Source: Acidobacteriota bacterium
Lineage (GTDB): Bacteria > Acidobacteriota > UBA4820
Direction of reading: 5' to 3'
Length of the DNA stretch: 64,000 nucleotides
NCBI GenBank assembly: GCA_029559035.1
Contig: JAKQCT010000088.1
Span: 1 to 64,000 of the forward strand
Shown: one piece after another, positions 10,143-35,521 of the stretch
Numbering within the stretch: position 1 is the first letter of the stretch
How the letters are laid out: every line of letters starts with the position of its first letter
The notes under the pieces: model-generated
Seen by the model: the letters and a program-made list of their open reading frames with translations, nothing else
What the model was told of the DNA's origin: nothing
Database searches by the model: none
Program-made: the position numbers and the translations under genes

Positions 10143-13100
10143 ATGAGAGCGAAAATCCTGTTTTTTGCCGGCCTTTTAATGATGCTTCTGTCGCTGAGCT
10201 CACAGGTCTCGGCACAGATACCCGGCGAGGGATGGGTGAGGATCGGTATCTCCTATTCGGGGAACATCACGGCCCTCGCGGTCAGCCCTAACTACGAAGG
10301 CGACAAGACACTATTCATAGGAGTCCAGGGCAACGGGTTGTGGAAATCGTACAACCGCGGCGATACCTGGAGGGCGTGCGCTGCGATCCCATCGACGGAA
10401 ACGGTCACGGGCATCGCTCTCCCGAAAAACTACTATTACGGGATGGGTCTTCCCTGCTTCGTTGTGACGAAGGAAGGACACTTCTACAGCTCCACTGACG
10501 ATTTCGCGACGGTCCAGTATTACTTCGATTTTGCCACCACCAAAGGAAATCCATGCACCTGCATAGTTGTCGGAGGGCAGACGACCTTCGACGGCAAAAT
10601 ATATGTGGGAACCTGGGGCGACGGAGTCCATGCGAACCTGAATTACGGATCCCCCGCCGATTGGGGCAAGATCTCCACGGCACAGGAGGACCTCGCCAAC
10701 TGCAGGTCCCTCTGCATCACGAACCAGGCGACCCAGAGCGTCTGGGCGACGAGCAGTTCCACAGGCAACACGATTTTCAAATACACGGGCTCCGCCTGGG
10801 CGCCGAAGAACCCATCAGCGCTCGTTGGAGCGGATGTCCTGTCGATCCACTCGGCGTGGACCAAGTACCAGGACATGTGGGTCGGAACCGCGGCCCACGG
10901 CATGTGGCGCTCCGGCACTTCAGGCGAGTCGTGGGTCGCCGCCTGCGACGGGACAACGGTCGGCGGCGCGCCGTTCTCCGTGAACACCGTGAGGAACTGT
11001 CCCCTTTACCTGACCGACAATGAAGTGTGGGAGGGCAGGAGCGACGGGATGAGGACCTCCACGGACGGAGGCGCCAGCTGCGCTGACGGCCAGCCTTCTT
11101 CAGACATCAAGGTGATCGATTTCACCCCAGGCTATCACGGAAGCGCGTCGAATTATTGCGAGGCCTTCGTTGGAACATCGTCAGCGCTTTTCAGGCTGAG
11201 CTGCGCCGGCGGCCAGGCGGGAAAGACCCCTCCCGTCATAGACGCCAGGGCGCTGGCGATAGCAAAAGAAGCCAAGGGGCTCTTCGTCGGTTCTGCGGCC
11301 CGGGGACTTTTCAAATCAGTAGACAACGCGACGATGGTCGAATACAACAACTTCCCGAACGGGAAGATCCCCGAGATCGTCGCGGTCTCCCTCCACCCCG
11401 ATTACTACGAAGGAGGGGATTGCGGGGACCAGGGGACGCTTTTCGTGGCGGCCAACTTCACCGGTTCGCCCTCGGACAACGGCGTTTACAGGAGCGAAGA
11501 TTTCGGGAACACCTGGGTGAAGCTGGTTGCGGGAGAGTGGCCCACGACCGATGTCACGATGAGGGACCTGGCGATTTCCCCGGCTTACGCTGACGATTCG
11601 ACCCTGATAGCTGCCACGAGCGCGCATCTCTTCAGGTGGGTCTCGGGGTACGGCTGGGACAGGATCGGAAAAGACACTACCTTCAGCGACTTCACGATGG
11701 TGGCGCTTCCTCCGACCTTCAACAGAAGCTCGGGCGGATGTTCATACGGAGGATACAGCGGCCTGCCCTGTTACACGGTTTTCGTGTCGGCCCAGCAGGC
11801 AGGGATCAGGTCGCTCTGGTGGGCGAATATCAATGAAGATTCGTTCCAGAAGATCGAACCGAGCAACTGTACCCTGGACCCGCAACTTTGTCCCAGGGAC
11901 ATAACGGGGATGGCTTTCCCGAGCAACTGGTGCAGCGGTTCCAGCCCGAGCACAAAGACGAGAGTTTCGTCCTCGACAAGAGGAGTCCTCGGATGCGACA
12001 CGATAAACTGGACAAGCTTCTACGCGCTGAACAGCGGTCTTCCGACCAGTCTTAATGTCGCTGACATAGCGGCGGACCCTGATTGGGTGGACGGTTCCAG
12101 TCCAACGCAGACCAACCTCATGTGCGCCGTGGCGGCCTCCACCCCCGGTTACACCGATTTCGGGTCCTATTTCTCGAGCAGCGCTGGAAACTCGTGGTCC
12201 CTCACTCAGCGGGGAAAGGCTGTCGCCGTCGCCTATGAAACTGCTTCGACCTCTTCCAATCCTTTCGGCATGGCGGGCTTCCAGAGGGACGCGACCTATG
12301 GAGTCTCGCCGCCTTACGGCGCTTTCATATCCGATGACAACGGCCAGAGCCTCAACTGGCTCTCGGGGTACTGGTCGCTTCCGGCCGACGTCTTTTCGTC
12401 CGTCGCGCACGAAAGGGACCCCAACTATGTCTTCGCTTCCTCGCCTTCCATGGGAGTCTTCGTCAGCGCCGACAAAGGCGAATCTTTCCACCCCTACAAC
12501 AAGGGGAAAAAGGGAGTGCTCGGCCCATGCCGCCTCTGGGGAAGCTATGCGATCACGATGCTCAAGGACAGGAGAGGCGGCAACCTCGACATCCTATACG
12601 CGGGAACGACCGACGGAATAAAATCGAGATATATCTACTACAATTCGACAACGGGAATAGACCTGCAGACGGAGGATGGATCGACCGCGAACGGCTGGTA
12701 TCACTCGCTGCTTGCCGACCTTTCGACACCTACGACAGGTTACTGGGAAAGGCTGGAGGTGGTTCCGAACACCGCATCGACATATCCCGTCTGGGCGGCC
12801 AGCCCGCAGAAAGGCTCGGTCCCGGGCCTTGGATTCGCCAACTTGCAGCCGGGAAGCTACAACGGCTGGACCCTTCAGACATCTGGGTTGCCGGCCAGTC
12901 CTAGCGGCAAGGGGGTCAGGATCGGGTATGACGGCTGCAGCACGGCGGTGGAAACCCTTTACGACGGATCCGTCGTTGAGGGGGCTGTCAAGCAGGGATG
13001 CTGGAGATATTACAGGATAGACGTGACCGATCAGGCAAGCACGCTGAGGGTTACGCTCGACGATCCCGACGATTACGGAACGCAGGACGCTGACCTTTAT

Positions 13101-16625: not shown

Positions 16626-16659
16626 ATGACCGCTGTTTCGATGATATCAGAGTTTCCTG

Positions 16660-16686
16660 AGAGCGGGCCCCGGGGCCCGCTCTTTA
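16660..16686 (+). terminator. Intrinsic terminator after giant gene 1
   Basis: An 11-bp stem (AGAGCGGGCCC / GGGCCCGCTCT) with a two-base centre (effectively a 4-base loop), followed by a T-rich stretch, 35 bases after the stop. It indicates that each giant gene is its own transcription unit. Confidence 0.88.
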
Positions 16687-16714
16687 TTTAAAAAGTCGAC
16701 AGCTTCATTATGAC

Positions 16715-16742
16715 TTGCGGAAAAACTTGAAAGTATTATACT
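16715..16742 (+). promoter_or_regulatory. Promoter of giant gene 2
   Basis: TTGCGG (16715-16720) and TATACT (16737-16742) are 16 bases apart. The whole block from ACTTGCGGAAAAAC to TATTATACTTG recurs almost unchanged upstream of giant gene 3, which supports a real promoter. No CRP-like dyad is seen upstream of this copy. Confidence 0.65.
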
Positions 16743-16780
16743 TGGGTCATAGAAAAGTTGTTTTCTCAGGGAGGTGCGCT

Positions 16781-19700
16781 ATGAAGGCGAAAACCTTTTT
16801 CCTAGTGCTCGTTGTTTCGGCTGTTCTCTTCTCCGTTTTTCCCCTGTACGGACAAACTCCTGAAGAAGGATGGACGAGGATAGGCGTCGCGTCCTTTTCG
16901 GGAGGGGTCCTGGCGATCGCCGTAAGCCCTTCGTACGAGACGGACCAGACCATCTATATCGGATCGAGGGGAGGAGGGTTGTGGCGCTCCTCGGACAGGG
17001 GCGGCAGTTGGTGCCAATGCTCCGCGGTTCCATTCGACGCGACGGTGACCGGTATCGCCCTGCCGAGGAATTACCAGTTCGGGCAATCCATCGTCGCTTT
17101 CGCAGTAACCGACGAAGGGTATTTCTACTGCTCGAACAACGACTTTCAGAGCGTTCTCCTGTCCCATCAATTCTCCGCAGGCCCCTTTGAGGCTATTTAT
17201 CCCTGTTCCTCCATCGTGATAGGAGGAAACTCAACCTTCGACGGAAAGGTCTTCGTCGGAACCCGGGGGGGCGGGGTATGGAAGAACGAGTACGGAGGCG
17301 ACCCGGGCTTCTGGGAAAGGATCAACGACGACCCGATCAACCCGGTTACACAGCTGGATGATTGCAACTCCCTGACGATCACCAGCGAGACTCCCCAGAA
17401 ATTATGGGCATCATCCACTATGTCTCCGGAAAAGCTCGCGCTGGAAGCCTCCAGGGGTGCTGGTACTTCCGTATGGCGTTACGAGGGAGGCGATTCGTGG
17501 AGCGACCACGCGCCCGATCTCGATTATCAGCAGGTCTATTGCATTCACGCCTCCTGGCACGATCCTTCGAACATGTGGTTGGGCTCTGGAAGAAAAGGAA
17601 TGTGGTATTCGAACAATTACGGAGGCTCATGGCAGCCGGCGTGCGACGGTTATCCGGAAGGGGGGCTTCCATTCGAGGTGAAAGCGATCGCTGATAATTC
17701 GAACAGCACTCTCCTCTGGGAGGGAAGGAGCGACGGCCTGCTCACATCCGCGGACCTCGGCGCGAATTGCTCCCTCGGCTCGATACATACGCAGGTGAAC
17801 GCGATAGCTTTCGCTCCCGCGTACGGGGCCAGCGGGAATTACCGCGAAGCATTCGTCGGGACCGAGATAGCCCTTTACAAGTTCGCCGGCGGTTCCCAGC
17901 CGTATGTCAGGTCTCCCGTCCTAGTTGACGGCAACGCGGTGGCGGTTGCGGAAAATGGGCACGGCTTTTTCATGGGTTCGCTTTCGAGGGGCCTTTTCAA
18001 GAGCGTCGACAACTCCAAAATGGTCGAATACAACGGCTTCACGGATTCCTCCGGGTCGTTTCTGAAAGCGCAGATCGAAGCCGTCCGCATGGACCCCCTG
18101 TACGACGAAAGCGTCGAATCCTGCGGGGACTACAACACTATTTTCGCCGCCGTCAACTTCCCGGATGACTCTTACAGCAACGGCATTTACCAAAGCACGG
18201 ACGCCGGCGCCAGCTGGATAAAGCTTGCGGGCGGCGACTGGCCCAACGAATCAAGCATGGAAGTCAAAGACCTGGCCATATCCCCGCAGTACAGGAACGC
18301 GGGCCCCGATTCGACGCTTTTCGCGGCCGCCGAAGGGGGCATATACAGGTGGGACCATGAAAGCGGAGACCATTTCTGGACAAAAGTAGCGGAATGCCAG
18401 GCTGAATTCGTCGCTCTTCCCCCGACTTACAATAGGACCTCATCCTGCGAATATGGCACTCCGCCCGACACTACAGCCGGCCTTCCCTGCAACACGGTGT
18501 TCGCTGGATGGAATGAAAGCGGAAGAGTCCGTCTTTTCGTTTCGTTCGACAACGGAGGCGTGTTTTACCCGATATACCCGGATCCAGAATGCCCGGGAGA
18601 CGCGGTCAATTGCCCCATAGATATTACAGGGATGGCTTTCCCGACCAATTTCTTTTCGGGGAGCCCTCCAAGCGAAAAGATAGTGGTTTCTTCTTCCACC
18701 AAGGGCGTCCTGGCCTCGGGCGATTACAACCTTTTCGCTCCCTCTCTCTGGGTAAGCTGGACTGCCTACAACACGGGCCTTCCATACAACTCGCTCGACC
18801 AGTACAACGTGAACGACATCGCGGCCGACCCCGACTGGATAGACAATCCGACAGGGGGATCGACCGATCCGACTTTTATCTGCGCGGTCCCCGTGGGGTC
18901 GTCTTCCGACTCCACTTACATGGGAGCGTTCACGACCTACGACGGAGGATCTAACTGGAGCCTCGAACAGGGAGGCTGCGCGGTCTCCGTCGCTTTCGCG
19001 AAGACCGCTTCGCCGACTCCCTCCATCGCGGTGGCGGGATTCCGCAGGGATCCCGCCTATTCCTCCGATTCGCCTTGCGGAGCATACCTTTCGACCGATA
19101 ACGGAGATTCATACGCCAGGCTGACAGGTTACTACTCTCTCCCCGACGACATTTTCTCTTCCGTCGTGCACGAGAGAGACGCAGATTATGTCTTCTCCGC
19201 CTCCCCGTCAATGGGGGTTTTCGTCAGCTCCGACAAGGGCGAGTCATTCCACCCTTTCAACGGGGGAATGGGAGGGACTGCGGGCCCGTGCAGGCTGACG
19301 AACGGCTACGGGATCACCATGCTCGCCAATAGGAGGGGATGGTCCAACGACGTTATCTACGTGGGCACGGAAGACGGGATAAAGTCGAGGTATGTTTATT
19401 ACGATTACTGGATGCCGAACCACATAAGGCTCGACGTGGAGGATCAGCAGTACAACCCGAGCGCGTGGCGCCATTCATCGCTCTACGGTGGGGGGGCGAC
19501 GACCGGTTATTGGGAGAGGCTCGAGGTGGTTCCGGGGTCATCGCAGAACTATCCTGTCTGGGCGGTGAGCCCGCAAAAGGGCGCTGTCAGCGGCCAGGGC
19601 TTCGCTTCGCTTCCGCCGGGAGCTTACGAGGGATGGGTCTTCCAGAATTCGGGACTTCCTTCGTCTCCTAACGCCAAGGGAGTGAAGATCGGTTATTCGG

Positions 19701-22141
19701 GCGGCGCGGGCGGAGTCCAGCCCCTCATCAGCGATTCTCCGATAATGGGGACCGTCGGGCAGGGAGAATGGGACTTTTACAGCATCGAGGTCCTTCAAGC
19801 CACGGAAGACCTTTTCGTCTATCTCGACGACCTGGACGATACGGGAGCCGACGATCCCGACCTTTACCTGAGGTACGGCTCCGTTCCCGACCTTGTCAAT
19901 TACGACTATAGGCCATACCTCAACAACGACGAAGAGGTGTGCGTGAAGTCGTTCCTCTTCGAGGATTTTGATGACGGGATACCACTCACCTGGACCATCG
20001 TCGACGGCGGGTCGGGAGGTGGTTCCGCTTCGACCTGGACCGAGCTCAACCCCGGGGGAAGAGTCGCCCCGGCGCCGATAACCGCCCCGTTCGCGATCGT
20101 CGACAGCGACAACGCGGGAAGTTCGGCGAGCCAGGACGAAGAACTCATCTCGCCCGTGATCGACCTTTCCTCCGCGACATCGGCGCTTCTGGAGTTCGAC
20201 CATTATTTCCAGTGGTTCTCGGGAAGCCTCGACGAAATAGGAGACGTCGATGTAAGGTCCACTCTCACTGGAGGTTCTTGGGTCAATATCTCAAGGAACC
20301 AGGGAGCCAGTTCCCTGTATCCCGCCCACGGGCAGATCGACATCACCGCTCAAGCCGCAGGGGCTTCAGATGTCCAGGTGAGGTTCCATTACTACCAGGG
20401 TCAGAACGAGTGGTACTGGATGGTGGACAACATAAGGGTCAGCGGGACTGCTCCCCAGAGGCTCAGGCCCGGAACATGGTACATCGGTGTCAGGGGTTAT
20501 TCGTCGGGAGACAACGGGTATGAACTGACAGCCTCACGGGATTACGGATGCACCTCGTATAAATCCACATTTAAAGAAGGAAGCGGGAAAGACCTCTTAA
20601 ATGAAAAATTCATTCCTCCCGACCCGAGGGCTCCTGTAGGCACGGCAACATGGGGAACGGTGAACGGTTCGGGGGTTTACAAGGGGACGGGGAGCATCTC
20701 TCTGACCGAATCGGGTCACGAGCCTTCCGCCATAACCTGGCTCCTGAGGAACGGAACGACATATCCCCTTGCCAATGTCAACGCTAACACTATAATCCAG
20801 CTTGAAGACCTGACGCTTATAGTAGGCTGCGACGCGTCGGGTTCATCCGACAAGGGGATCTTTTATTCTCCTTCTCCCGACGAAGGGGCGACGACATGGA
20901 CGGAGGCTTCGGCAGTTGCGGGGGAAGGGTCTAAGAACTATGTCGATCTTCTCTCGGCGTCCAACGGAGACGTACTGATCGCCGGCGACGATTCGGGCAC
21001 GGCCGACGGAGGCGTATGGCTTTCGGGCGACAAGGGGAAGAACTGGATGAGGATATCCCAGGGATTCGACAGCTCGTCGCAGGCGCTTTCCGACCTCGTG
21101 GCCGACAACGGGGATCCCGTTTCTTACTACGCTTCGACGGCCGGGACGAGCGACGCGGGCACTGAGTCCCCGACGGGGCTCTGGACCAGGACCATAACTG
21201 CGAGCGCATATCCGACGATAACATCGATCGTTCCGGACAACGGGGGCGCTTCGGGCGGGACCGCGGTCACGATAACCGGGACGGGTTTCAGCGGCCTCTG
21301 CCCGACGGGCAATGATCCGGACTGTCCGGACGCATCGCCGGTGGTTATTTTCGGGGGCACTGAGGTAGCGGCGACATTCGTCAGCTCAACTTCCCTCACT
21401 GCCGTTTCGCCCGCGCACTCTGCGGGGAGCGTTACAGTAAAAGTGAGGAACCGCGACACGAGGGAGAGTGAGGCCGGTGTTCTTTTCACTTTCGGCACTG
21501 CCTGCCAGCCCCCTTCCGGTCTTCCAAACAATACAGCGGTAGACGCCGATCCCTGTGCCGATACAGGCGTTCTGGTTTCATGGTCGGACCCCGCCGATTG
21601 GGGCGACGGAGGCAGCGGGACCAGGACCTTCGATGTGCTGAGGGACGGGAGCGCCATCCAGGCGGGCCTTTCTTCCTCCACGCACGAACACACCGACACG
21701 ACGGGAACGAACGGAGTGACCTATGCCTATTCGGTGAGAGCGAACAACGGCTGCGGGATGTCGGCCTCGACATCAGGCGCTTCGGCGGCGGACATTTTCT
21801 GCGTTCCTCCCGAAGTGGCTGGCGGGATCTATCCCGACATACAGTCCTGGGAGGGAGAGACTCAGATCTGGCCCGCGGCCGAGAGAGCGGAGGGTTATTA
21901 TCTCTACAGGGTTCTCAGGTCCGAACTCCCCAACCTTGACGGTGGAAGCGCTTTGTCCCTCTGCAAGAGGGCTCTCGCGGGGGGGACAAACACCAGTTAT
22001 GATTGCGGCGGAGACGACGCAAGCTCCGTGGAGCCGAGGGTCTATTACTACCTAGTGACAGGTTATAACGAGACGGGAGAAGGCGGCGGCGGAAGCGGAA
22101 CGGGATTTACCAGAACTTTAAGCGCGGGAGTATGCCCGTAG
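16781..22141 (+). CDS. Giant secreted Asp-box propeller / IPT / FN3 protein, paralog 2
   Basis: A 1786-aa exported protein, paralog of its neighbours. The signal peptide is MKAKTFFLVLVVSAVLFSVF...YG. The ATG at 16781 has a GGGAGGT site; an upstream in-frame TTG lies inside the promoter -35 box and is rejected. Layout: Asp-box propeller (~20-940, e.g. SDRGGSW, DKGESFHP), PPC-like half (~967-1057), jelly-roll J-type domain (~1057-1220), second PPC half LRPGTWYIGVRGY (~1227-1257), DPRAPVGTATWG (~1280), further Asp-box (GDKGKNW), IPT/TIG (~1477-1574), a single FN3-like repeat (~1575-1674) and the C-terminal domain from CVPPEV to the end, closing GVCP. It has none of the 86-aa repeats of paralogs 1 and 4. 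The function is unknown; adhesion, glycan binding or matrix formation are guesses. Confidence 0.85.
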   Translation: MKAKTFFLVLVVSAVLFSVFPLYGQTPEEGWTRIGVASFSGGVLAIAVSPSYETDQTIYIGSRGGGLWRSSDRGGSWCQCSAVPFDATVTGIALPRNYQFGQSIVAFAVTDEGYFYCSNNDFQSVLLSHQFSAGPFEAIYPCSSIVIGGNSTFDGKVFVGTRGGGVWKNEYGGDPGFWERINDDPINPVTQLDDCNSLTITSETPQKLWASSTMSPEKLALEASRGAGTSVWRYEGGDSWSDHAPDLDYQQVYCIHASWHDPSNMWLGSGRKGMWYSNNYGGSWQPACDGYPEGGLPFEVKAIADNSNSTLLWEGRSDGLLTSADLGANCSLGSIHTQVNAIAFAPAYGASGNYREAFVGTEIALYKFAGGSQPYVRSPVLVDGNAVAVAENGHGFFMGSLSRGLFKSVDNSKMVEYNGFTDSSGSFLKAQIEAVRMDPLYDESVESCGDYNTIFAAVNFPDDSYSNGIYQSTDAGASWIKLAGGDWPNESSMEVKDLAISPQYRNAGPDSTLFAAAEGGIYRWDHESGDHFWTKVAECQAEFVALPPTYNRTSSCEYGTPPDTTAGLPCNTVFAGWNESGRVRLFVSFDNGGVFYPIYPDPECPGDAVNCPIDITGMAFPTNFFSGSPPSEKIVVSSSTKGVLASGDYNLFAPSLWVSWTAYNTGLPYNSLDQYNVNDIAADPDWIDNPTGGSTDPTFICAVPVGSSSDSTYMGAFTTYDGGSNWSLEQGGCAVSVAFAKTASPTPSIAVAGFRRDPAYSSDSPCGAYLSTDNGDSYARLTGYYSLPDDIFSSVVHERDADYVFSASPSMGVFVSSDKGESFHPFNGGMGGTAGPCRLTNGYGITMLANRRGWSNDVIYVGTEDGIKSRYVYYDYWMPNHIRLDVEDQQYNPSAWRHSSLYGGGATTGYWERLEVVPGSSQNYPVWAVSPQKGAVSGQGFASLPPGAYEGWVFQNSGLPSSPNAKGVKIGYSGGAGGVQPLISDSPIMGTVGQGEWDFYSIEVLQATEDLFVYLDDLDDTGADDPDLYLRYGSVPDLVNYDYRPYLNNDEEVCVKSFLFEDFDDGIPLTWTIVDGGSGGGSASTWTELNPGGRVAPAPITAPFAIVDSDNAGSSASQDEELISPVIDLSSATSALLEFDHYFQWFSGSLDEIGDVDVRSTLTGGSWVNISRNQGASSLYPAHGQIDITAQAAGASDVQVRFHYYQGQNEWYWMVDNIRVSGTAPQRLRPGTWYIGVRGYSSGDNGYELTASRDYGCTSYKSTFKEGSGKDLLNEKFIPPDPRAPVGTATWGTVNGSGVYKGTGSISLTESGHEPSAITWLLRNGTTYPLANVNANTIIQLEDLTLIVGCDASGSSDKGIFYSPSPDEGATTWTEASAVAGEGSKNYVDLLSASNGDVLIAGDDSGTADGGVWLSGDKGKNWMRISQGFDSSSQALSDLVADNGDPVSYYASTAGTSDAGTESPTGLWTRTITASAYPTITSIVPDNGGASGGTAVTITGTGFSGLCPTGNDPDCPDASPVVIFGGTEVAATFVSSTSLTAVSPAHSAGSVTVKVRNRDTRESEAGVLFTFGTACQPPSGLPNNTAVDADPCADTGVLVSWSDPADWGDGGSGTRTFDVLRDGSAIQAGLSSSTHEHTDTTGTNGVTYAYSVRANNGCGMSASTSGASAADIFCVPPEVAGGIYPDIQSWEGETQIWPAAERAEGYYLYRVLRSELPNLDGGSALSLCKRALAGGTNTSYDCGGDDASSVEPRVYYYLVTGYNETGEGGGGSGTGFTRTLSAGVCP
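20608..21800 (+). repeat. 3' module shared with giant gene 3 (copy in gene 2)
   Basis: An exact 84-base match runs from 20608 to 20691 against 26080-26163. High DNA similarity continues through the Asp-box, IPT and FN3 regions, with another long near-exact run around 21030-21130 versus 26498-26598. Upstream of 20608 similarity drops at once. The pattern fits recent duplication or gene conversion of the C-terminal half. Confidence 0.8.
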
Positions 22142-22270: not shown

Positions 22271-22309
22271 TGCAGTAGATAAAAAAAGATGCCCCGAAGG
22301 AGGCGAGCG

Positions 22310-25300: not shown

Positions 25301-27619
25301 ATGACGATCGCCAACCAGGACCTCCAAGTATTACTCTCGGATCCCGACGGAACTCAGAGCGGAGGACAGAACTGCGGCCTTTATCTCAGGTACAACAACC
25401 TGCCGACCGCGTCAACCTATGATTACCGTATCACATCCGACGGCGACAAGACGGTCTGCGTGACGGAGATCGTTCTGGAAAACTTCAGCAGCTCCTGGGG
25501 GCCTTACGGCGACAGCCCGCCTGCGGGATGGACCATCGAGACAAACGAGACTGCGCCGGTGTACTGGGATGACAACAACTGGTACAATTACAGTTCGAGC
25601 CCGAGAGTCTACAGCACCTTCGGACGATTGAACGAGGACGAGAAGATCATCTCTCCATTGTTCGACATCCCGTCTACGTTCACCAGCGCCAATGTGTCAT
25701 TCAGGCACAGGTTCTACATGACTTCGTCGGGGGCGAACATTTACGTAAGATTCAGGTCCTCGGAGAACCCATCGTGGATAACTTTGTACTCGCGAAATTA
25801 CGAAGTGTCCGAGACCAGGACGCTGGATCTCTCTTCTTACATCGGCAATACGGACTGCCAGTTGATGTTCGAGTACAGCGATCCGAGCATGGCGACTGGG
25901 ACCAGGTACTGGAGTTTTGACGATGTCCAGGTTTACGGGGCTTCGCCCCCAAGCCTGCGCCCCGGAGAATGGAACATCGGGATCTTGGGGATCGGATCCG
26001 GCGACAACGGATACCTGCTGACTCCATTAAAGGATTCAGGCTGTACGCAGTCCTTCGGGAACAAGGCCGAAAGAACCACATTCATTCCTCCCGACCCGAG
26101 GGCTCCTGTAGGCACGGCAACATGGGGAACGGTGAACGGTTCGGGGGTTTACAAGGGGACGGGAACCATCTCTCTGACCGAATCGGGGCACGAACCGTCC
26201 GCCATTACCTGGCTCCTGAGGAACGGAACGACGTATCCCCTTGCAAATGTCAATGCGAACACGATAATCCAGCTTCCTGACCTGACGCTGATCGTTGGCT
26301 GCGACGCGTCGGGTTCATCCGACAAGGGGATCTTTTATTCGCCGTCTCCCGACGAAGGTGCGACGACCTGGACCGAGTCGTCTGCCGTGGCGGGGGAAGG
26401 ATCGAAGAACTATATCGATCTTTTAGCGGCTTCGAACGGAGACGTTCTGATCGCGGGAGACGATTCTGGATCGGCCGACGGAGGCGTTTGGCTGACGGGC
26501 GACAAGGGGAAGAACTGGATGAGGATATCCCAGGGATTCGACAGCTCGTCGCAGGCGCTTTCTGACCTCGTGGCCGACAACGGGGACCCCGTTTCTTACT
26601 ACGCCTCGACGGCGGGGACGGGCGACGCGGGCACTGAGTCCCCGACGGGGCTCTGGACCAGGACCATTACTGCGAGCCAGTATCCGACGATAACATCGAT
26701 AGTTCCCGACAACGGGGGCGCTTCGGGCGGTACCGCGGTGACGATAACGGGGACGGGCTTCAGCGACCTCTGTCCCACCGGCCACGACGACGACTGTCCC
26801 GACGCTTCTCCTGTCGTCATTTTCGGGGACACGGAGGTCGCTGCGACATATATCAGTTCAACGACACTCACGGCTGTGACGCCTCCGCACGACGCCGAGC
26901 ACGTTCTTGTAAAGATCAGGAACAGGGATACGAGGCAAAGCATGGCCGGTGTCATTTATACTTTCGTCACGACCTGCCAGCCTCCTTCCGGCCTTCCGAA
27001 CAATACGGCGGTCGATGCCGATCCCTGCGCCGACACGGGCGTTCTGGTTTCATGGTCGGACCCCGCAGACTGGGGTGATGGCGGAAGCGGAGCGAGAAGC
27101 TTCGATGTCCTGAGGGACGGGAGCGCCATCCAGGCGGGCCTTTCCTCCTCCACGCACGAATATACAGACACGACGGGTACGAACGGAGTGACATACGCCT
27201 ACTCGGCGAGGGCGAACAACGGCTGCGGGATGTCGGCCGTAACCCCGGGAGCTTCGGCCGCGGATATCCTCTGCGTTCCTCCCGAGGTAGGCCCGGGCGA
27301 CAGCGAGTCAAACGCGCAGGACTGGACAGAAGACAAAGCCACGCAGACATGGCCGGCGGCCGAAAGAGCTACCGGATATCACCTTTATAAGTTCGCGTTG
27401 GCTGATCTTCCCTATCTCCAGAACACTTCCGATGAAGGCTGCAAGTGGAGCGTCGGGAATGTCACCAGCCACGATTGCAGCGGAGACGATCCGAGCGTGG
27501 AAACGGGAAGAGTATATTTTTATCTTGTGACGGGGGTTAACGAAACGGGAGAAGGAACGGGAGGGGACGGCACAGGTTTTACAAGGGCTCTGTCCACATC
27601 GATAACCTGTTCTCCCTGA
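22310..27619 (+). CDS. Giant secreted Asp-box propeller / IPT / FN3 protein, paralog 3
   Basis: A 1769-aa exported protein. The ATG at 22310 is preceded by AAGGAGG; an in-frame ATG seven codons earlier lies before that site and is rejected. A short positively charged start and hydrophobic core (IMVYLVLVFAALPFFA) form the signal peptide. Layout: Asp-box propeller (~20-940; STDRGVTW, STDKGENF), PPC-like half (~964-1054), jelly-roll J-type domain (~1054-1211), second PPC half (~1216-1246), DPRAPVGTATWG (~1262), GDKGKNW Asp-box, IPT/TIG (~1461-1556), one FN3-like repeat (~1556-1654) and the C-terminal domain ending ITCSP. From 26080 onward its DNA is almost the same as in paralog 2, while the N-terminal part is much more diverged. 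Function unknown. Confidence 0.85.
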   Translation: MSGKKNIKIMVYLVLVFAALPFFAQTPEESWTRLAVSYSGNITALAVSPSYETDQTLYIGVKDSGLWKSTDRGVTWTQCPAVPCEYTVSGIGLGKDYCYGSGDPCFVVTEDTYYFRSDDDFQTYSYAYQFMIGSMMVYPAILTGVVVGGVTGFDNAVYVGTFGGGVYAHYSGGNSDIGWTSLGPYGFKCRSLTLTSNSTQVLWLAGSSSAGVGGVHRYVGGGVGWVSHEADVGSLEMLSIRASWTNAARLWAGGASTGIWYSFDSGDNWSAGCEAGSAPYQVRSIRECPVSTHGSELWEGTSKGMRFSTNSGTSLCSDIFPGSGINCVEFAPAFHGTGDYCEMFVGTESALYRIPCEGTAKVRSPIVVDGHSVALAKDGLGVFMGSMSQGLFKSLDTTSTGGKMVRYNSFPNGETPEIAAVCPHPHYADDDGGCGTEETLFAAANFPVNSGDNGVYKSVDAGNSWVKVNNASTWPTSTINLNDLEISPNYGSAASPATAGNDGTLFAATSLGVFRWSYDVKDGRYEWANVSSSYFSQAAWVKVTPTFDSTSSCSFVCNGTSYSGFPCKTVWSYGYDFNNTRYCLFYSRNLGDTWTPVYPTASPALCPTGTTCPTDITGITFPSNYMTGATPSTKLYVSSSSKGVLAGQLTSTDCLYTAAANWATKNGWLPMTKTVVDIASDPDWVDPTEDADDVLICALSNSGVWRTSNASNTTPTWSRIIQGHALSVGFESRKWGASHQMAMAGFAKDEDMMTNPPYGAYYTANIADLTTYPFHQLTGYYSLPDDVFSSVVHERDPDYVFASSPSMGVFVSTDKGENFNPYNLGAGGSLGPCRLDNGYGITMLADRAGSGSGIDVLYVGTDNGIKARHIYYDGSSIHLDWADGAGGPSSWLDTSWYGGGDTTGYWERLEVAPETADTMPVWAVSPDKGALTGQGFASLPSGQTDGWILQTGGLGSTNAKGVRTGQDGGSTTAYQLQSGQTVTGSVRPGIWNYYHVDMTIANQDLQVLLSDPDGTQSGGQNCGLYLRYNNLPTASTYDYRITSDGDKTVCVTEIVLENFSSSWGPYGDSPPAGWTIETNETAPVYWDDNNWYNYSSSPRVYSTFGRLNEDEKIISPLFDIPSTFTSANVSFRHRFYMTSSGANIYVRFRSSENPSWITLYSRNYEVSETRTLDLSSYIGNTDCQLMFEYSDPSMATGTRYWSFDDVQVYGASPPSLRPGEWNIGILGIGSGDNGYLLTPLKDSGCTQSFGNKAERTTFIPPDPRAPVGTATWGTVNGSGVYKGTGTISLTESGHEPSAITWLLRNGTTYPLANVNANTIIQLPDLTLIVGCDASGSSDKGIFYSPSPDEGATTWTESSAVAGEGSKNYIDLLAASNGDVLIAGDDSGSADGGVWLTGDKGKNWMRISQGFDSSSQALSDLVADNGDPVSYYASTAGTGDAGTESPTGLWTRTITASQYPTITSIVPDNGGASGGTAVTITGTGFSDLCPTGHDDDCPDASPVVIFGDTEVAATYISSTTLTAVTPPHDAEHVLVKIRNRDTRQSMAGVIYTFVTTCQPPSGLPNNTAVDADPCADTGVLVSWSDPADWGDGGSGARSFDVLRDGSAIQAGLSSSTHEYTDTTGTNGVTYAYSARANNGCGMSAVTPGASAADILCVPPEVGPGDSESNAQDWTEDKATQTWPAAERATGYHLYKFALADLPYLQNTSDEGCKWSVGNVTSHDCSGDDPSVETGRVYFYLVTGVNETGEGTGGDGTGFTRALSTSITCSP
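26080..27270 (+). repeat. 3' module shared with giant gene 2 (copy in gene 3)
   Basis: Partner of the module at 20608-21800. The sharp left border at 26080 falls just before the codons for the conserved DPRAPVG segment, so the shared block covers the IPT and FN3 parts but not the propeller. Confidence 0.8.
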
Positions 27620-27649: not shown

Positions 27650-27680
27650 AAGGCGGGCTTCGGCCCGCCTTTCCCTTTTC
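27650..27680 (+). terminator. Intrinsic terminator after giant gene 3
   Basis: A stem AAGGCGGGC / GCCCGCCTT closed by a TTCG tetraloop, followed by T-rich sequence, 30 bases past the stop. Confidence 0.9.
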
Positions 27681-27715: not shown

Positions 27716-27731
27716 TGTGACCTAAGTCACA
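27716..27731 (+). promoter_or_regulatory. Perfect CRP-consensus operator upstream of giant gene 4
   Basis: TGTGACCTAAGTCACA matches TGTGA-N6-TCACA at all ten fixed positions. Its centre is 35.5 bases before the TATAAT at 27759. The spacing equals that at giant gene 3. Binding by a CRP-family regulator is inferred. Confidence 0.65.
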
Positions 27732-27808: not shown

Positions 27809-30800
27809 ATGAGGAAAAAGACCTTATTGGGTGTTTTGGCTGTTGTGGTGCTTTTCGCCTGTTGCGCGAGCCTTTACGCGCAGACGGGGACCGAAGCCTG
27901 GACCAGGATAGGCAGGGGCATATCGAGTTCTCACGACGGATACATAACCGCTCTCGCCGTAAGCCCGAGCTATGAACAGGACAAGACTCTTTACATAGGG
28001 ATCAAGAATGCGGGACTTTGGAGGTCCTCGGACAGGGGAGAGAACTGGAGCCAGTGCGCGGCCGTGCCGTGTGACTCGACGGTCGCCGGTATCGCGCTTC
28101 CGAGGGATTACAACTACAACCTGACGGGAAAGCCCGCGTTCGCGGTGACAGAGGAGGGCTTTTTCTATCGGACGACGGACGATTTCGTCAACTCCACAGA
28201 CACGCGTGATTTCGACTCGCCGTGCAGCGCGGTGATCGCGGGCGGCCTGACAGTCTTCGATTCGATGGTCTATGTCGGGACGAAGGGCGGAGGGGTGTGG
28301 AGGAACACTTACGGAGGAGCCGGAACGAACTGGGATTTCATCGGCATAGACGGAGCCGGAGAAATTTGTCTTTCCCTCACGATCACAAGCGCGGCGACGC
28401 AGGTCCTCTGGGGGGTTTTCTGGGACCCGGCGTTCGGCGGCAGGATATACAGCTACAGCGGCTCGGGGCAGTCGTGGACCAACCGTACACCAACAGATCT
28501 CGTGAGCCAGGTGGTCTTCCACATAAGAGCTTCCTGGGTAAACTCGTCCTACATGTGGGCAGGGACGGCGGACCGCGGCATGTGGCGGTCTGTAGACGGA
28601 GGGATCAACTGGACGGCAGCGTGCGACGGGAGTTCCACCGGGGGAGTGACTTACGCGGTGCGCGCGGTGACGGAGAGTCCCGCCGCCGCCACGACCAATG
28701 AAATATGGGAGGGAACCGATTCGGGACTCAGGTCATCGACGAATTACGGTGCATCGTGTGCGGACAGCGTCCCGAAGTCGGGAGTGACCTGCATAGACTT
28801 CGCGCCAGGTTTCGACACCGGCGGTAACTATTGCGAGGCTTTTGTCGGGACATCTTCCGGGCTCTACAGGATACAGTGCGCGGGAACGGCGATACCCGAG
28901 AACAAGAGCCCGGTCGTGGTTGACGGCAGCTGCGTCGCGATGGCTCACGACGGCAAGGGATATTTCATGGGTTCTCTCTCCGGAGGACTCTTCAAGGCCG
29001 TGCCGGGAAGGACCAACATGGTCCAGTACAACAATTTCCCCAACGGCCTGACGCCCTCGATCGTCGGGATCTGCCTGCATCCCGATTACAACGAGGAGGA
29101 GACGGAGTGCGGAGATCCCAACACTCTCTTCGTCGCGGCGAACTTCCCCGACAGCCCGCTTGACAACGGGGTTTACAAGAGCACTGACGCGGGCAACAGC
29201 TGGACGAAGATGATCGGCGAACAGTGGCCGTCAACAGAGATATACCTCAGGGACCTTGCCATCTCTCCAGGTTATGACGACAACGCTCTTCCGGACGGCA
29301 TGCTTTTCGCCGCGACGAGCGACTACCTTTACAGGTGGAGCCCTTCTTCGGGTTGGACCAGGTGCGGCTATGACCAGGGACTGACCGACATATATTTCGT
29401 CGAAGTCGCGCCGACCTTCAACGGCAACGCCGACGCGACATGCCCGGAATACAGCGGATACAGCGGCTATCCGTGCAAGACGGTTTGGGTGGGCGCGAAA
29501 GACGGGTACGCCGAGACCCGTCTCTGGTACTCGTTCAACAGGGGCGGGACTTTCACGATGGCCATGCCCACGAACTGCGGCACCGTTCCCGCCTCCTGCC
29601 CCCTGGATGTCACGGGGATAACTTTCCCGAGCGACTTCGGCGTCCAGGACAGCAGTCTCAACCACGCCGTATTTGCCTCGTCTTCCACAAGGGGCGTCCT
29701 GAGGTCGCTCACTTTCCTGTGGGCAGGGACTTCGTGGTCGCCCTGGGCGACGGGACTTCCAACTCCGCTGAACGCCCTGGACATAACTTCCGACCCCGAC
29801 TGGGTCCGCGAAGCCGGCGGGACGAGCAACGCCGTTCTGCTCTGCGCCGTCCCTTCCGCGACCAATCCCGGAGAGGCGGGAGTTTACGAATGCACGACAG
29901 GGAACGGCACTTCATCGTGGAACAGGATCATCGACGGCCACGCCCTGTCGGTTGACTACGAGACGAGATCGCCCGGGTACCCGTCTTTGAAAGCGATGGC
30001 CGGGTTCAGGAGAGATCCGCTCATAGGCCCTGATTCGAACTATGGCGCCTACTACCTGGACAACCTGGCGCCCTCCGCGACGCCCAATACATATAATTTT
30101 ACCGGCTACTACTCACTTCCCGACGACGTTTTCTCCACGGTCGTCCACGAAAGAGACACAGATTATGTATTTTCCTCCTCGCCGTCGATGGGCGTCTTCG
30201 TCAGCTCCGACAGGGGCGAAAGCTTCAGGCCCTGGAACGCCGGAGCCGGAGGCACGGCGGGGCCGTGCAGGCTGACGAACGGCTACGGGATAACCATGCT
30301 TGCAGGCAGGAGAGGCACGAACCTCGACGCTTTCTGGGTGGGAACGAGGGACGGGATAAAGGCGAGGTACACATACACGGATACATCGGGAATTGTCCAC
30401 CTCGATCACGAATCAGATTCAACGACCCCTCCGCCGAGCCTCTGGAAACATTCATACCTGACGGGCTTATCCACGCCGACGAGCGGTTATTGGGAAAGAC
30501 TGGAAGTGGTTCCCGGCAGCGGGACGACATTACCTGTCTGGGCCGTGAGCCCCTACAGGTACGGCTATTCAGGGGACGAGCAGGGCTTCGCCAACCTCCA
30601 GGCGGGAACTTACGACGGCTGGACGATTCAGACCTCGGGACTCGTGTCGACCAACTCCAAGGGCGTCAGGACCGGCTACGACGGCGCAGGCGCGTTAAAA
30701 ACCATCACAAGCGGACAGATCATCAACGGGAGCATCAAGCAGGGGGCCTGGGACTACTACAGGATAAATGTCACGAGCAGCCCCAACGACCTGCAGGTCC

Positions 30801-33800
30801 TGATGGACGACCTTGACGACGGAGGCAGCCAGAACCCCGACCTCTATGTCAGGTTCGCCGCCTCCCCCTCGGAGACCCTTTACGACTACCGTCCCTATGT
30901 GAACGGGGACGAATCCGTCTGCGTCACCCGGTTCTACGACTTTATTTTTGAAAAAACCTGGGGTCCCTACGGGAACAACCCGCCTGCCGGATGGACCATA
31001 ACCAAGCCCGCGAGCGATACGACATGGGACACCAACAACTGGCACGCGGTTTCCGGAACTTTCCAGGCGAAGGTCATCGGCGACCCGTCAAAGGCGATGA
31101 ACGAGTGGCTGATCACTCCTTCCTTCAATATCCCGGCCAGCAGCGAGAACGGCATCGAGGTAAGGATAAACCACTTCTTCAACAAACCATCAGGGACTGT
31201 AACTCACGGTTATACCTGCATCTGGTCCGACCAGTATCCGGAGTGGATCGTGCTGGACGACCACACGGACGACATGTTCGCGGATCGTTCCAAGAGCATT
31301 CCCATCCCGAGCAGTTACAAGGGGAACACAAATGTTAAGATCGCCTTTCAGTATGTGGATTCAACCCCCACCGCCCTCAGATTCTGGGCGATCAACTCGG
31401 TCGAGGTCGGCGGGCTGCTGACCGGCTATTGGTATATCGGGATCAGGGGCAACTCGACGACTGCCGGCGAATATTCTCTCACCGCCAGGATAAATTCGGG
31501 CTGCACACAGTCCTTCGCGAACTTTGGTGAACCGAACAAGGACCCGGACACGGGCGTAAGATTCTCGGCACCTGATCCGAGGGCGCCGGTAGGCACGGCT
31601 ACCTGGGGAACAGTAAACGGAACCGGCGTTTACCGGGGGACGGGAACGGCGACCGTCAACTGGACGCCCTCCGGATCTCAGCCGACGAATGCCAGCGCGC
31701 AAACAATCCTGCAAATGTCCGATCTGACTCTTGTTGTCGGCTGCGACGCTTCCGGGTCTTCTGACAGAGGCATTTTCTATTCTCCAGCGCCGGACGAAGG
31801 GGAGACCGCCTGGTACGAAGCGCACGCGGTAGCGGGAGGGGATGCCAGCTCCAAGAACTACGTGGACCTTCTGGAAGCCTCCAACGGCGACATCCTGATA
31901 GCCTGCGACGATTCCGATACCGAAGTCGGAGGCGTCTGGCTTTCAGGCGACAAGGGGAAGAATTGGATGAACATCTCCAGCGGCTTCGACAGCTCCTCGC
32001 AGGCACTTTCCGACATTGTCGCCGACAACGGCAGCCCGGTTGCCTATTACGCTTCCACGGCGGGAACCGGCGACGAGAGCTCAGAAGATGCTACCGGGCT
32101 TTATACAAGGACCGTTACAGCGAGCCCGTATCCGGATGTGACGGGAATTAACCCCACTACAGGCCCCGACTCGGGCGGCACATCGGTGACCATCACCGGG
32201 ACAGGCTTCAGCAACAGCTGTCCAACCGGCTACAGCGCCAACTGCCCGCACGCTTCTCCGGTGGTCATTTTCGGGAGCAACGACGGAACAACGGCCTACG
32301 AAGTGGCTGGCACCTGGGTGAGCGCGAGCTCCATAACCTGCGTTTCACCCGCTCACGAGGCGGGACTTGTCTCCGTCAAGGTCAGGAATCCCGACACGAG
32401 GCAGAGCGCGGCGGGGATGGGGTTTACTTACAACTTCACCTGCCAGGCTCCGTCGGGCATGGCGAATAACACGGCGATCGACGATGACGCGTGCGGAGAT
32501 ACGGGAGTCGTTATCAACTGGAGCTCTCCTTCCGACTGGGGAGACGGAGGGTCGGGGACGAGGACCTACGATGTCCTGAGGGACGAGGTCGTCATATCAT
32601 CCGGTTTATCGGAGGGTACGCTTTCTCACGACGACGCGACGGGGGTCAACGGTACCTCATACACTTACAAGGTGAGGGCCAACAACGGATGCGGCCAGTC
32701 ATACACCACCGCGGGAGCATCTACGGCAGACGCCGTTCCTTCAGCACCCTCATGGACTTTCAACAACACCGCTTCCGACCTCAGCGGCTGTTCCGACACT
32801 GGAGTCAGGGTCCAGTGGAACGGGCCGTCAGATTGGGGGGACGGCGGCTCGGGGACGAGGACCTATGATGTCCTCAGGGACGGAGCCGCCATCGCGAGCG
32901 GGCTCTCTTCTTCCACCAGCAGTTACACCGACACGACGGGCATCAACGGGACAACCTATACTTACAAGGTTCGGGCGAATAACGGCTGTTCGCTGAGTAC
33001 AGAAACCACGGGCGCGACGGGAGCCGACAATGTGGGGTCCGCTCCTTCGGGCATGGCGAACAACACCGCCGCCGATGTGGACGCCTGCGCTGACAGCGGT
33101 GTTAAGATCGATTGGAACGATCCAGCAGAATGGGGCGACAACGGAGTCGGGACCAGGAGCTTCGTGATCTACAGGGGAGCATCCTCGATCCAGACGCTGA
33201 GCGCTTCGGTCCACACCTACACGGACACGACGGGGATCGACGGCACCTCATACCTTTACAGGGTCCGCGCGGTTAACGGTTGCTCTCTCGGAACGCTGAC
33301 AACGGGGGTGAACGCCTCCGACACGGTCGGAGCCTCTCCCTCGGGCTTTTCGAACAATACTGCCGCCGACATCGACGCCTGCGCCGACTCGGGGGTGAAG
33401 ATAGACTGGACGGCTCCGTCCGACTGGGGCGACAACGGCAGCGGAACAAGGTCGTTCGAGGTGCTGAGGAACGGGACGACGATCGTGTCAGGGCTCTCCG
33501 CCGCCACGCTGACATACACGGATAACACGGGAACGAACGGGACATCCTATCCGTACACGGTGAAGGCCATCAACGGATGTTCGCTCAATTCCGTCACGAC
33601 GGGAGCTTCCGCATCGGATGAGGTGCCGCCCGGAGAACCGTCCATAACCAACATCACTGATGACGACGCCTGCGCCCAGAGCGGTATCAAGGTGACATTC
33701 ACGGCCGGCTCCGGAGCGACGAGCCACGACCTTTACAGGGATGGGACAAGCGTCGTTACGGGCTATACATCGGGAGCGACATACAACCCGGGGGACACTT

Positions 33801-35521
33801 CATCGCATAGCTACGTGGTCCGAGCGATAAAGGGCGGCTGCTACGCGAACTCTTCCGCCTCCGCTTTCATAGACGCGAACGATACTCCGGGCGCGCCCTC
33901 CATCACGGGGATAACCGACGATGACCCGTGCGCCCAGAGCGGGATAACGATAAGCTATACGCCAGGCAGCGGAGCGACGAGGCATGACCTCCTCGACGAT
34001 GGAGTGGTGGTCGTCTCTGGATTCGTGTCGGGTTCAACCTACAATCCGGGCGACAAGGCTGAGCACACATACCGCGTAAGGGCCGTTAAAGGGATTTGTA
34101 ATACGGATTCATCTTCGCAGGACGCCACGGACCTGGACGGGTCGCCGGGACAGGCGGTCATAACGGAAGTTTCGGATGTGGATCAATGCTACCAGAACGG
34201 GGTCGCGGTGATATACCAGCCGGGAAGCGGAGCGTCGAGCCACGATCTTTACAGGGACGGGAACCTGGTCGTCGCCGGATATGTCTCGGGCGTCACATAC
34301 GACCCTCAGGACACTGCAAGCCACAATTACCGGATCCGTGCGATCTCAGGTTCATGTTACTCGGTTTCGGCCCTCATGGCGGGAACGGACCTGAACAACG
34401 GGCCTGAAAAGGCTTCCATAACACTCATTTCGGACATCGACAACTGTTCCCAGAGCGGGATCGCGGTTAGCTATACGCCGGCAGGCGGCGCAATCAGCCA
34501 CGACCTTTACAGGGACGGCGCTCTTGTGGTCGAAGGGTACGCGTCCGGCGCGACCTACGATCCGCAGGATGCCTCGAGCCACAATTACAGGATCAGGGCT
34601 TTCGACGGGTCATGTTATTCGGTATCCGATGCCGTGGCGGGAACGGATAACGATAACGGCGTTGCCATTCCCGGTGCGCCTGTGGTCGCGGACATCCACG
34701 CCTGCGCGACGGACGGTGTGACTGTGACATGGGACGCCGTGGCGGGCGCGACAGGTTATGACCTGCGCGTTGACGGAGCGGTCACCTACTCGGACGTTTC
34801 CAGCCCCTACACGCACACGCCGGGAGACAACTCTTCGCACAATTACAAGGTGATGGCGAAGAACGCAGTCTGCACGAGCGACTGGTCCGCGGTGACCGCA
34901 GGAACCGATCTTAACGATTCGCCATCGGCGCCGTCGATAATCTCCGTTGCCGACAACAACCCCGGGATCCTTGACGGGGTAGTCATCACATTTAATCCGG
35001 GGACGCCCGCGACAGCTCATTACCTTTATGTGGACCTTTCGCTCGTTAGCACGAACTTCGTTTCGGGTAGCATCTATGAGCCGGGGAACAGCGAGGTCCA
35101 CAGCTACATGATAAAGACGGTCAACGGAGACTGCAGCGAGGACTCGGCGCCCGTCAACGGACAGGACCTTGCGATCGCGCTTCCTCCCGAGATAGCGCCG
35201 GGAGACACCTTCGAGACCGCCCAGGTCTGGAGCGCGGATAAAAACACCCAGAGCTGGCCTGCAGCGGCTGAAGCGGATGGCTATTATCTCTACCGCATCA
35301 GGAAATCTGATCTCGGCAACCTGCAGGATTCGACGGACGAAGGATGCATCAGGGACCTCGGGGCCGCTTACAGCTACGACTGTTCGTCAGATGATCCGAG
35401 CGGGCTCCCGAACAGGATCTATTACTACCTTGTGACGGGATACAACGCGGCAGGGGAAGGTCCGGCCGGCGAGGGGACAGGGTTCACGAGGGACCTGTCA
35501 AGCACCAACCCGTGCAATTAG
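27809..35521 (+). CDS. Giant secreted Asp-box propeller / IPT / multi-repeat protein, paralog 4
   Basis: The largest paralog, 2570 aa. The signal peptide is MRKKTLLGVLAVVVLFACCA...YA; the ATG has a GGAG site. Layout: Asp-box propeller (~25-940; SDRGENW, TDAGNSW, SDRGESF), PPC-like half (~953-1043), jelly-roll J-type domain (~1043-1201), second PPC half GYWYIGIRG (~1203-1232), DPRAPVGTATWG (~1256), GDKGKNW Asp-box, IPT/TIG (~1442-1544), four FN3-like repeats of ~99 aa (1545-1941), six ~86-aa repeats (1942-2457) and the shared C-terminal domain (2458-2570), ending NPCN. It differs from the other paralogs mainly in repeat number. The stop codon overlaps the stop of the convergent cyclase gene. 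Function unknown; a long stalk presenting a propeller away from the cell is a reasonable inference. Confidence 0.85.
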   Translation: MRKKTLLGVLAVVVLFACCASLYAQTGTEAWTRIGRGISSSHDGYITALAVSPSYEQDKTLYIGIKNAGLWRSSDRGENWSQCAAVPCDSTVAGIALPRDYNYNLTGKPAFAVTEEGFFYRTTDDFVNSTDTRDFDSPCSAVIAGGLTVFDSMVYVGTKGGGVWRNTYGGAGTNWDFIGIDGAGEICLSLTITSAATQVLWGVFWDPAFGGRIYSYSGSGQSWTNRTPTDLVSQVVFHIRASWVNSSYMWAGTADRGMWRSVDGGINWTAACDGSSTGGVTYAVRAVTESPAAATTNEIWEGTDSGLRSSTNYGASCADSVPKSGVTCIDFAPGFDTGGNYCEAFVGTSSGLYRIQCAGTAIPENKSPVVVDGSCVAMAHDGKGYFMGSLSGGLFKAVPGRTNMVQYNNFPNGLTPSIVGICLHPDYNEEETECGDPNTLFVAANFPDSPLDNGVYKSTDAGNSWTKMIGEQWPSTEIYLRDLAISPGYDDNALPDGMLFAATSDYLYRWSPSSGWTRCGYDQGLTDIYFVEVAPTFNGNADATCPEYSGYSGYPCKTVWVGAKDGYAETRLWYSFNRGGTFTMAMPTNCGTVPASCPLDVTGITFPSDFGVQDSSLNHAVFASSSTRGVLRSLTFLWAGTSWSPWATGLPTPLNALDITSDPDWVREAGGTSNAVLLCAVPSATNPGEAGVYECTTGNGTSSWNRIIDGHALSVDYETRSPGYPSLKAMAGFRRDPLIGPDSNYGAYYLDNLAPSATPNTYNFTGYYSLPDDVFSTVVHERDTDYVFSSSPSMGVFVSSDRGESFRPWNAGAGGTAGPCRLTNGYGITMLAGRRGTNLDAFWVGTRDGIKARYTYTDTSGIVHLDHESDSTTPPPSLWKHSYLTGLSTPTSGYWERLEVVPGSGTTLPVWAVSPYRYGYSGDEQGFANLQAGTYDGWTIQTSGLVSTNSKGVRTGYDGAGALKTITSGQIINGSIKQGAWDYYRINVTSSPNDLQVLMDDLDDGGSQNPDLYVRFAASPSETLYDYRPYVNGDESVCVTRFYDFIFEKTWGPYGNNPPAGWTITKPASDTTWDTNNWHAVSGTFQAKVIGDPSKAMNEWLITPSFNIPASSENGIEVRINHFFNKPSGTVTHGYTCIWSDQYPEWIVLDDHTDDMFADRSKSIPIPSSYKGNTNVKIAFQYVDSTPTALRFWAINSVEVGGLLTGYWYIGIRGNSTTAGEYSLTARINSGCTQSFANFGEPNKDPDTGVRFSAPDPRAPVGTATWGTVNGTGVYRGTGTATVNWTPSGSQPTNASAQTILQMSDLTLVVGCDASGSSDRGIFYSPAPDEGETAWYEAHAVAGGDASSKNYVDLLEASNGDILIACDDSDTEVGGVWLSGDKGKNWMNISSGFDSSSQALSDIVADNGSPVAYYASTAGTGDESSEDATGLYTRTVTASPYPDVTGINPTTGPDSGGTSVTITGTGFSNSCPTGYSANCPHASPVVIFGSNDGTTAYEVAGTWVSASSITCVSPAHEAGLVSVKVRNPDTRQSAAGMGFTYNFTCQAPSGMANNTAIDDDACGDTGVVINWSSPSDWGDGGSGTRTYDVLRDEVVISSGLSEGTLSHDDATGVNGTSYTYKVRANNGCGQSYTTAGASTADAVPSAPSWTFNNTASDLSGCSDTGVRVQWNGPSDWGDGGSGTRTYDVLRDGAAIASGLSSSTSSYTDTTGINGTTYTYKVRANNGCSLSTETTGATGADNVGSAPSGMANNTAADVDACADSGVKIDWNDPAEWGDNGVGTRSFVIYRGASSIQTLSASVHTYTDTTGIDGTSYLYRVRAVNGCSLGTLTTGVNASDTVGASPSGFSNNTAADIDACADSGVKIDWTAPSDWGDNGSGTRSFEVLRNGTTIVSGLSAATLTYTDNTGTNGTSYPYTVKAINGCSLNSVTTGASASDEVPPGEPSITNITDDDACAQSGIKVTFTAGSGATSHDLYRDGTSVVTGYTSGATYNPGDTSSHSYVVRAIKGGCYANSSASAFIDANDTPGAPSITGITDDDPCAQSGITISYTPGSGATRHDLLDDGVVVVSGFVSGSTYNPGDKAEHTYRVRAVKGICNTDSSSQDATDLDGSPGQAVITEVSDVDQCYQNGVAVIYQPGSGASSHDLYRDGNLVVAGYVSGVTYDPQDTASHNYRIRAISGSCYSVSALMAGTDLNNGPEKASITLISDIDNCSQSGIAVSYTPAGGAISHDLYRDGALVVEGYASGATYDPQDASSHNYRIRAFDGSCYSVSDAVAGTDNDNGVAIPGAPVVADIHACATDGVTVTWDAVAGATGYDLRVDGAVTYSDVSSPYTHTPGDNSSHNYKVMAKNAVCTSDWSAVTAGTDLNDSPSAPSIISVADNNPGILDGVVITFNPGTPATAHYLYVDLSLVSTNFVSGSIYEPGNSEVHSYMIKTVNGDCSEDSAPVNGQDLAIALPPEIAPGDTFETAQVWSADKNTQSWPAAAEADGYYLYRIRKSDLGNLQDSTDEGCIRDLGAAYSYDCSSDDPSGLPNRIYYYLVTGYNAAGEGPAGEGTGFTRDLSSTNPCN
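32441..33631 (+). repeat. Four tandem ~99-residue FN3-like repeats in giant protein 4
   Basis: The stretch is 1191 bases, 397 codons, about four units of 99. Each unit has (S/A)PSG..NNTA.D...C.D(T/S)GV...W, then (D/E)WGD.G.GTR(T/S), and ends with a T.G.NGT.Y.Y.V(R/K)A.NGC block. Paralogs 1, 2 and 3 have only one such unit. Confidence 0.88.
33632..35179 (+). repeat. Six tandem 86-residue Ig-like repeats in giant protein 4
   Basis: The stretch is 1548 bases, 516 codons, exactly six times 86. The units carry the same SHDLYRDG and (P.D)..SH.Y.(I/V)RA signature as the five repeats in paralog 1. The fifth unit (VVADIHACATDGVTVTWD) corresponds to the odd third unit of paralog 1. Confidence 0.88.

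Follow-up and report, generated by a model that had tools for sequence, protein, structure and literature searches.

Giant exported proteins paired with convergent sAC-type adenylyl cyclases: a putative cAMP-CRP regulon in an order of Acidobacteriota

Four consecutive genes for giant exported proteins and a convergent gene for an adenylyl cyclase of the soluble (sAC) type lie in the 64,000-nucleotide window, the whole stretch of DNA analysed here (Table 1). A preliminary description of the sequence had proposed a tandem array of four exported paralogs, and both points are borne out. The open reading frames are present as described, and pairwise identity is about 50% over 1680-2133 aligned residues, nearly the whole length, so the four giants are true paralogs. 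Signal peptides are predicted at the N-termini of all four translations. ATG 16781 and ATG 22310 are the likely starts of genes 2 and 3 because the signal peptides then align; with these starts, the predicted cleavage region is aligned across all four giants and their relatives. Additional FN3-like repeats are found in giants 1 and 4. Between giants 2 and 3, identity rises from about 55% overall to about 95% in a tract of about 200 columns that covers the DPRAPVGTATWG/Asp-box segment, and this tract looks like the product of recent gene conversion or recombination. Each gene had also been credited with its own terminator. Hairpins follow genes 1-3, whereas none follows gene 4, whose stop codon overlaps that of the convergent gene by 4 nt.

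Table 1. Features of the locus, with window coordinates
Feature	Position	Strand	Remarks
GDH	7846-9198		domain search
SpoU	9212-10054		domain search
CRP-type palindrome TGTGACTCAAGTCACT	10050-10065	+	93 bp before giant 1
Giant exported protein 1	10143-16625	+	2160 aa
GC-rich terminator hairpin	16661-16682	+	3' of giant 1
Promoter-like block TTGCGG...TATTATAC	16713-16744	+	common to giants 2 and 3; here without CRP palindrome
Giant exported protein 2	16781-22141	+	1786 aa from ATG 16781; ORF opens at 16715
High-identity DPRAP/Asp-box tract of giants 2 and 3	20600-21300 and 26100-26800
Terminator hairpin	22173-22192	+	3' of giant 2
CRP-type palindrome TGTGACGGGAATCACT	22222-22237	+	88 bp before giant 3
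Giant exported protein 3	22310-27619	+	1769 aa from ATG 22310; ORF opens at 22289
Terminator hairpin	27650-27671	+	3' of giant 3
Perfect CRP palindrome TGTGACCTAAGTCACA	27716-27731	+	93 bp before giant 4; TATAAT after 27 nt
Giant exported protein 4	27809-35521	+	2570 aa; stop overlaps cyclase stop by 4 nt
sAC-type class III adenylyl cyclase (P0005)	35518-39585	-	1355 aa: C1, C2, AAA_16, TPR

The giants have a common domain order: a probable GH74-like Asp-box double propeller is followed by a PPC domain that a choice-of-anchor J domain interrupts, then by a DPRAPVGTATWG/Asp-box segment, TIG, FN3-type repeats and a C-terminal module. Pfam and NCBIfam searches, in which some matches fell under the curated cut-offs, and an alignment of the four proteins agree with the order first read from the sequence, and the shared C-terminal domain of that reading is an FN3-like terminal module in all four. 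The propeller matches profiles of the Asp-box, Sortilin-Vps10 and F510_1955 type, and Asp-box (S/T-x-D-x-G-x-x-W) repeats are present within it. The PPC profile is matched in its first part only (positions 2-54 of 70). Choice-of-anchor J follows directly (P0001 1017-1175, P0002 1081-1242), with matches to NF038128 of more than 30 bits, above the cut-off, in giants 1 and 2; this profile gave no match in giants 3 and 4, though the region aligns with giants 1 and 2. A second PPC half (LRxGTWYIGVRGY...) is seen after the J domain in the alignment of the four giants, and the J domain is therefore inserted into the PPC domain. DPRAPVGTATWG is invariant across the four window giants, and the downstream part consists of TIG and then FN3/RGI-lyase-type beta-sheet repeats.

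Structure models of the giants are moderate overall (pLDDT 70-74). The AlphaFold model of the propeller, for which 12 sequences from the order were supplied, is confident over most of residues 10-720. Its top fold matches are GH74 xyloglucanases (E 6e-19), with a global TM of about 0.3 and uncertain domain packing, and a profile sequence search also reaches GH74 (4e-11). These matches cover the repeat in stretches of 30-230 residues, not the full length, and the match to NCBIfam F510_1955 'glycosylhydrolase' is below its cut-off. Because the global TM is low, the region is described as a probable GH74-like Asp-box double propeller and not as a member of GH74. The GH74 catalytic-Asp motif, ARTDIGGAYRW in 1sqj, reads AATSAGLYRW in the giants, with Ser for Asp, in a weak alignment; no counterpart of the second catalytic Asp was located. 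The preliminary description saw no enzyme active site; the Ser is consistent with this, while a GH74-like propeller could be catalytic. Asp-box repeats are common to the giants, GH74 xyloglucanases and other Asp-box propellers (Vps10, Ycf48), and the giants probably also have a double-propeller fold. Unlike those proteins, the giants add long PPC, J, TIG and FN3 parts, the catalytic Asp motif is not seen, and overall similarity is low.

The model of the PPC-J-DPRAP-TIG part is also moderate. Its TIG part matches the TIG domain of EBF1 (TMt 0.84), and the model matches the Kgp K1 cleaved-adhesin domain (TMt 0.61), a match that probably belongs to the J domain; the fold search otherwise returned mostly non-specific beta-sandwich matches, and only TIG and Kgp K1 were usable. 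The giants resemble choice-of-anchor J/cleaved-adhesin proteins in the J match, which exceeds the NCBIfam threshold for giants 1 and 2, and in the fold match to gingipain Kgp K1, and differ from the gingipain in that their J domain sits inside the PPC domain of a propeller protein and no protease domain was seen. A PDB sequence search with one giant as single query found no relative, and the literature searched gave no description of the giant domain order or of a cyclase-giant system, which upholds the earlier view that the order is undescribed. To our knowledge, the components are each of a known kind, and their conserved combination is undescribed in the literature searched.

A further TIG-like domain of about 80-110 aa was noticed at the C-termini of other proteins of the order (L049:10355-14290, residues ~1225-1311, and L192-L205). 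It has the pattern PFR..V.G.NLQ.G..V.ING..W....WK....IV.KGG..LK..VPK....F.F.NPDGG....W.W, sits at the very C-terminus or close to it, in many cases with Trp as the last residue, in at least 12 otherwise different proteins of seven genomes, and recurs dozens of times. It is a candidate sorting or anchoring domain. In the 2290-aa type 4 giant (L050:2130-9002; see below for types), the middle part looks peptidase C25-like by eye, a likeness that Pfam did not report.

The gene tail-to-tail with giant 4 encodes a cyclase that, over its first 462 residues, matches human soluble adenylyl cyclase across C1 and C2 (E=9e-31, PDB search). Residues D43, D93, K289, T356, N363 and R367 are invariant in eight homologues and align with sAC D47, D99, K334, T405, N412 and R416, which we take to be the metal Asp pair (D47, D99), the adenine-binding residues (K334, T405) and the transition-state residues (N412, R416). 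All six catalytic residues are kept in the window cyclase, which would make cAMP; the type 4 cyclase of the same genome (see below for types) has Arg at the catalytic Lys position. The likeness to mammalian sAC (ADCY10, PDB 4CLF/4OYA) takes in the tandem C1-C2 arrangement, the metal Asp pair in C1, the K/T/N/R set in C2 and a long ATPase/TPR C-terminal part. On the other hand, the bicarbonate-site K95 and R176 of mammalian sAC are Arg and Ala at the aligned positions, and the window cyclase is bacterial and genomically tied to giant exported proteins. By its sequence, it is sAC-like in architecture and active site and is no bicarbonate-regulated sAC.

The source genome has four sAC-like cyclases and two distant ones, and all four of the former stand tail-to-tail with giant exported proteins. 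Four types of pair are distinguished. Type 1 is the window locus, with four giants and one cyclase. In type 2 (C19), the giant is a protein of 1306 aa with Asp-box, a DPRAP-like segment and TIG. Type 3 (C51) has a tandem pair of giants, 1311 and 1607 aa long, with He_PIG and Big_7; one of them has an alpha/beta-hydrolase-like stretch. The giant of type 4 (C54), 2290 aa long with TSP3 and TIG, overlaps its cyclase by 16 nt at the 3' end. Across the order, every sAC-like cyclase with an assembled downstream flank is convergent with a giant exported ORF (18/18); these pairs are orthologous loci of four types across genomes and thus not independent cases, and two of them rest on truncated genes (the G012:C23 cyclase and the G003:C383 giant). 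Type 1 pairs occur in six genomes, type 2 in four, type 3 in five and type 4 in three. As a control, 208 genes from 400 kb of the same genome were examined, and one of them is convergent with an exported ORF of 1000 aa or more. Where a partner seems to be missing, in G002, G003 and G007, the contig ends; in G003 and G007, the type 3 giant without a cyclase and the type 3 cyclase without a giant both run to no more than a few hundred bases from the end of a contig. The 3' ends of cyclase and giant overlap or are mostly less than 150 nt apart; in G006 and G004, 1-1.5 kb lie between them. In the cyclase tree, types 3 and 4 are recovered as clades, and types 1 and 2 form clades within family f1 and are not separated in family f2.

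Two broader forms of the association were rejected. Such cyclases are not paired in general across the phylum, as a giant partner is absent at all seven weaker homologues found outside the order. Nor does every giant require a cyclase neighbour, since the giants at G008:C128 and G006:C165 lack one.

Type 1 giants, whole or partial, are present in eight genomes of the order. In the relative G001, a GDH-sized and then a SpoU-sized gene are followed by a single giant and the cyclase. Because the orthologous loci in relatives are single-copy, the four-gene array seems to have arisen by tandem expansion of an old locus.

Upstream of window giants 1, 3 and 4 stands a CRP-type palindrome, TGTGA-N6-TCACA, that matches the half-sites at 9-10 of 10 positions; in relatives, the same holds for most giants of types 1, 2 and 4. 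Giant 2 has no palindrome, yet it keeps the core promoter block of giant 3. With three copies bearing the site and one lacking it, the giants are probably largely co-regulated. The array had been presented as copies of unknown function that can be expressed independently; the palindromes at genes 1, 3 and 4 and the conserved cyclase-giant locus to which the cluster belongs had been missed. No clear palindrome was found upstream of type 3 giants, by which the idea of a CRP site before every paired giant was rejected. Before the cyclases, a palindrome was present in none of the 12 upstream regions tested, the best scoring 7 of 10.

The strict palindrome occurs at about 14 places in the source genome versus one for a reversed control, and nine of the roughly 14 lie upstream of exported proteins of 790 aa or more, five of them giants. 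The other palindrome-bearing exported proteins have Kelch/P-domain, FG-GAP and Ig-like parts. For the giants, the highest-scoring -10 hexamer begins 21-22 nt 3' of the palindrome (as good in 0/500 shuffles), a spacing equal to that of class II CRP promoters, with the site centred near -41.5. A second -10-like hexamer lies at 26-27 nt; if this one were used, the site would no longer be in class II phase. In other regulon members, a TTGACA-like -35 follows the palindrome after 15-17 nt and a -10 after 39-40 nt, which is nearly the class I spacing. Large exported proteins with the palindrome and class I-like spacing were also noted at L133, L135, L137 and L139 (Kelch/P-domain, He_PIG, 13x FG-GAP).

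One close CRP ortholog (222 aa, C50) is encoded in the genome and matches E. coli CRP with E ~1e-33. It keeps the cAMP contacts (GE..RS, TS) and the SRETVxR recognition helix of E. coli CRP. The ortholog is found once each in 12 of 13 genomes, the exception being a genome that is 64% complete. In G005, G009 and G012 (L157, L159, L161), a TGTGAC-N4-GTCAC palindrome lies just beyond the end of the CRP ortholog gene. The similarity to the cAMP-CRP regulons of E. coli (CRP) and Pseudomonas aeruginosa (Vfr) extends to the cAMP-contact and SRETVxR residues, the TGTGA-N6-TCACA sites and the class I/II-like spacing. Unlike in those regulons, the sites here show a preference for large exported proteins, and the cyclase genes are linked to genes of the target set.

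These features are best accommodated, with somewhat more than even confidence, by a regulon in which cAMP-CRP controls giant exported proteins of probable binding or adhesive function and each such locus has a cyclase. The locus would have two parts, one or more giant exported beta-proteins and a convergent sAC-type adenylyl cyclase, and the window cluster would be an amplified effector side. The cytoplasmic cyclase, with two cyclase domains, an AAA/STAND-like ATPase and a TPR sensor region, would make cAMP on some cue and load the single CRP ortholog. Bound to TGTGA-N6-TCACA about 41.5 bp before the transcription start, CRP may then activate the giants in class II fashion, and the same CRP would act upstream of other large exported proteins, at sites whose spacing is class I-like. 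Exported through Sec, the giants would function outside the cell, most likely binding ligands or carbohydrates without catalysis, in the manner of adhesins; the GH74-like double propellers would be the binding head and TIG/FN3 the stalk. CRP binding, activation as the sign of regulation and the neighbouring cyclase as the relevant cAMP source are inferred parts of this scheme. cAMP diffuses, and a neighbouring cyclase need not be dedicated.

Alternatively, the giants may be secreted GH74-like glycoside hydrolases, CRP-controlled catabolic enzymes for plant or microbial polysaccharide, with the cyclase serving ordinary catabolite control. CRP control is typical for catabolic genes, and the fold and profile matches to GH74 xyloglucanases, together with the F510_1955 match below cut-off, point in this direction. 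However, those matches are to the repeat, short and of low TM, the weakly aligned catalytic-Asp motif has Ser, and no transporter or CAZyme cluster was found among the scanned neighbour genes, which makes a hydrolase role unlikely. Antisense control of cyclase and giant transcripts through overlapping 3' ends would make the tail-to-tail arrangement itself the functional element and leave cAMP without a role in the giants. The overlaps of 4 nt in the window and 16 nt at C54 and the mostly short distances elsewhere fit such a mechanism, but the wider spacing in G006 and G004 (1-1.5 kb) does not, and palindromes with fixed promoter spacing would be left unexplained; it is very improbable.

Since type 3 pairing is as strict without a clear palindrome, the adjacency of cyclase and giant does not reduce to CRP control and, by this comparison of sequences, has a further cause. 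A cyclase that senses the giant or is regulated by it, for instance through its synthesis or export, would be a dedicated signalling partner, with CRP control secondary. Strict pairing over four locus types, including type 3 giants that lack CRP sites, and AAA/TPR regions, typical sensor modules, argue for such a partner, but no transmembrane or extracellular link was seen between the cytoplasmic cyclase and the exported giant, and the proposal is quite doubtful. Just as speculative is a cognate signalling pair in which the giant, as it is produced or displayed, would feed back on the AAA/TPR cyclase that belongs to it, and several parallel pairs would couple the cell surface to one cAMP-CRP pool.

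A cAMP-CRP regulon with linked cyclases would turn an isolated description of giant proteins into a testable regulatory system, for which many orthologous cyclase-giant loci are available for comparison. It raises the questions of which signal is read by sAC-type cyclases in an uncultured order and why each adjoins a giant exported protein. For bacterial relatives of sAC, it also suggests what they are likely to act on: exported proteins under CRP control.
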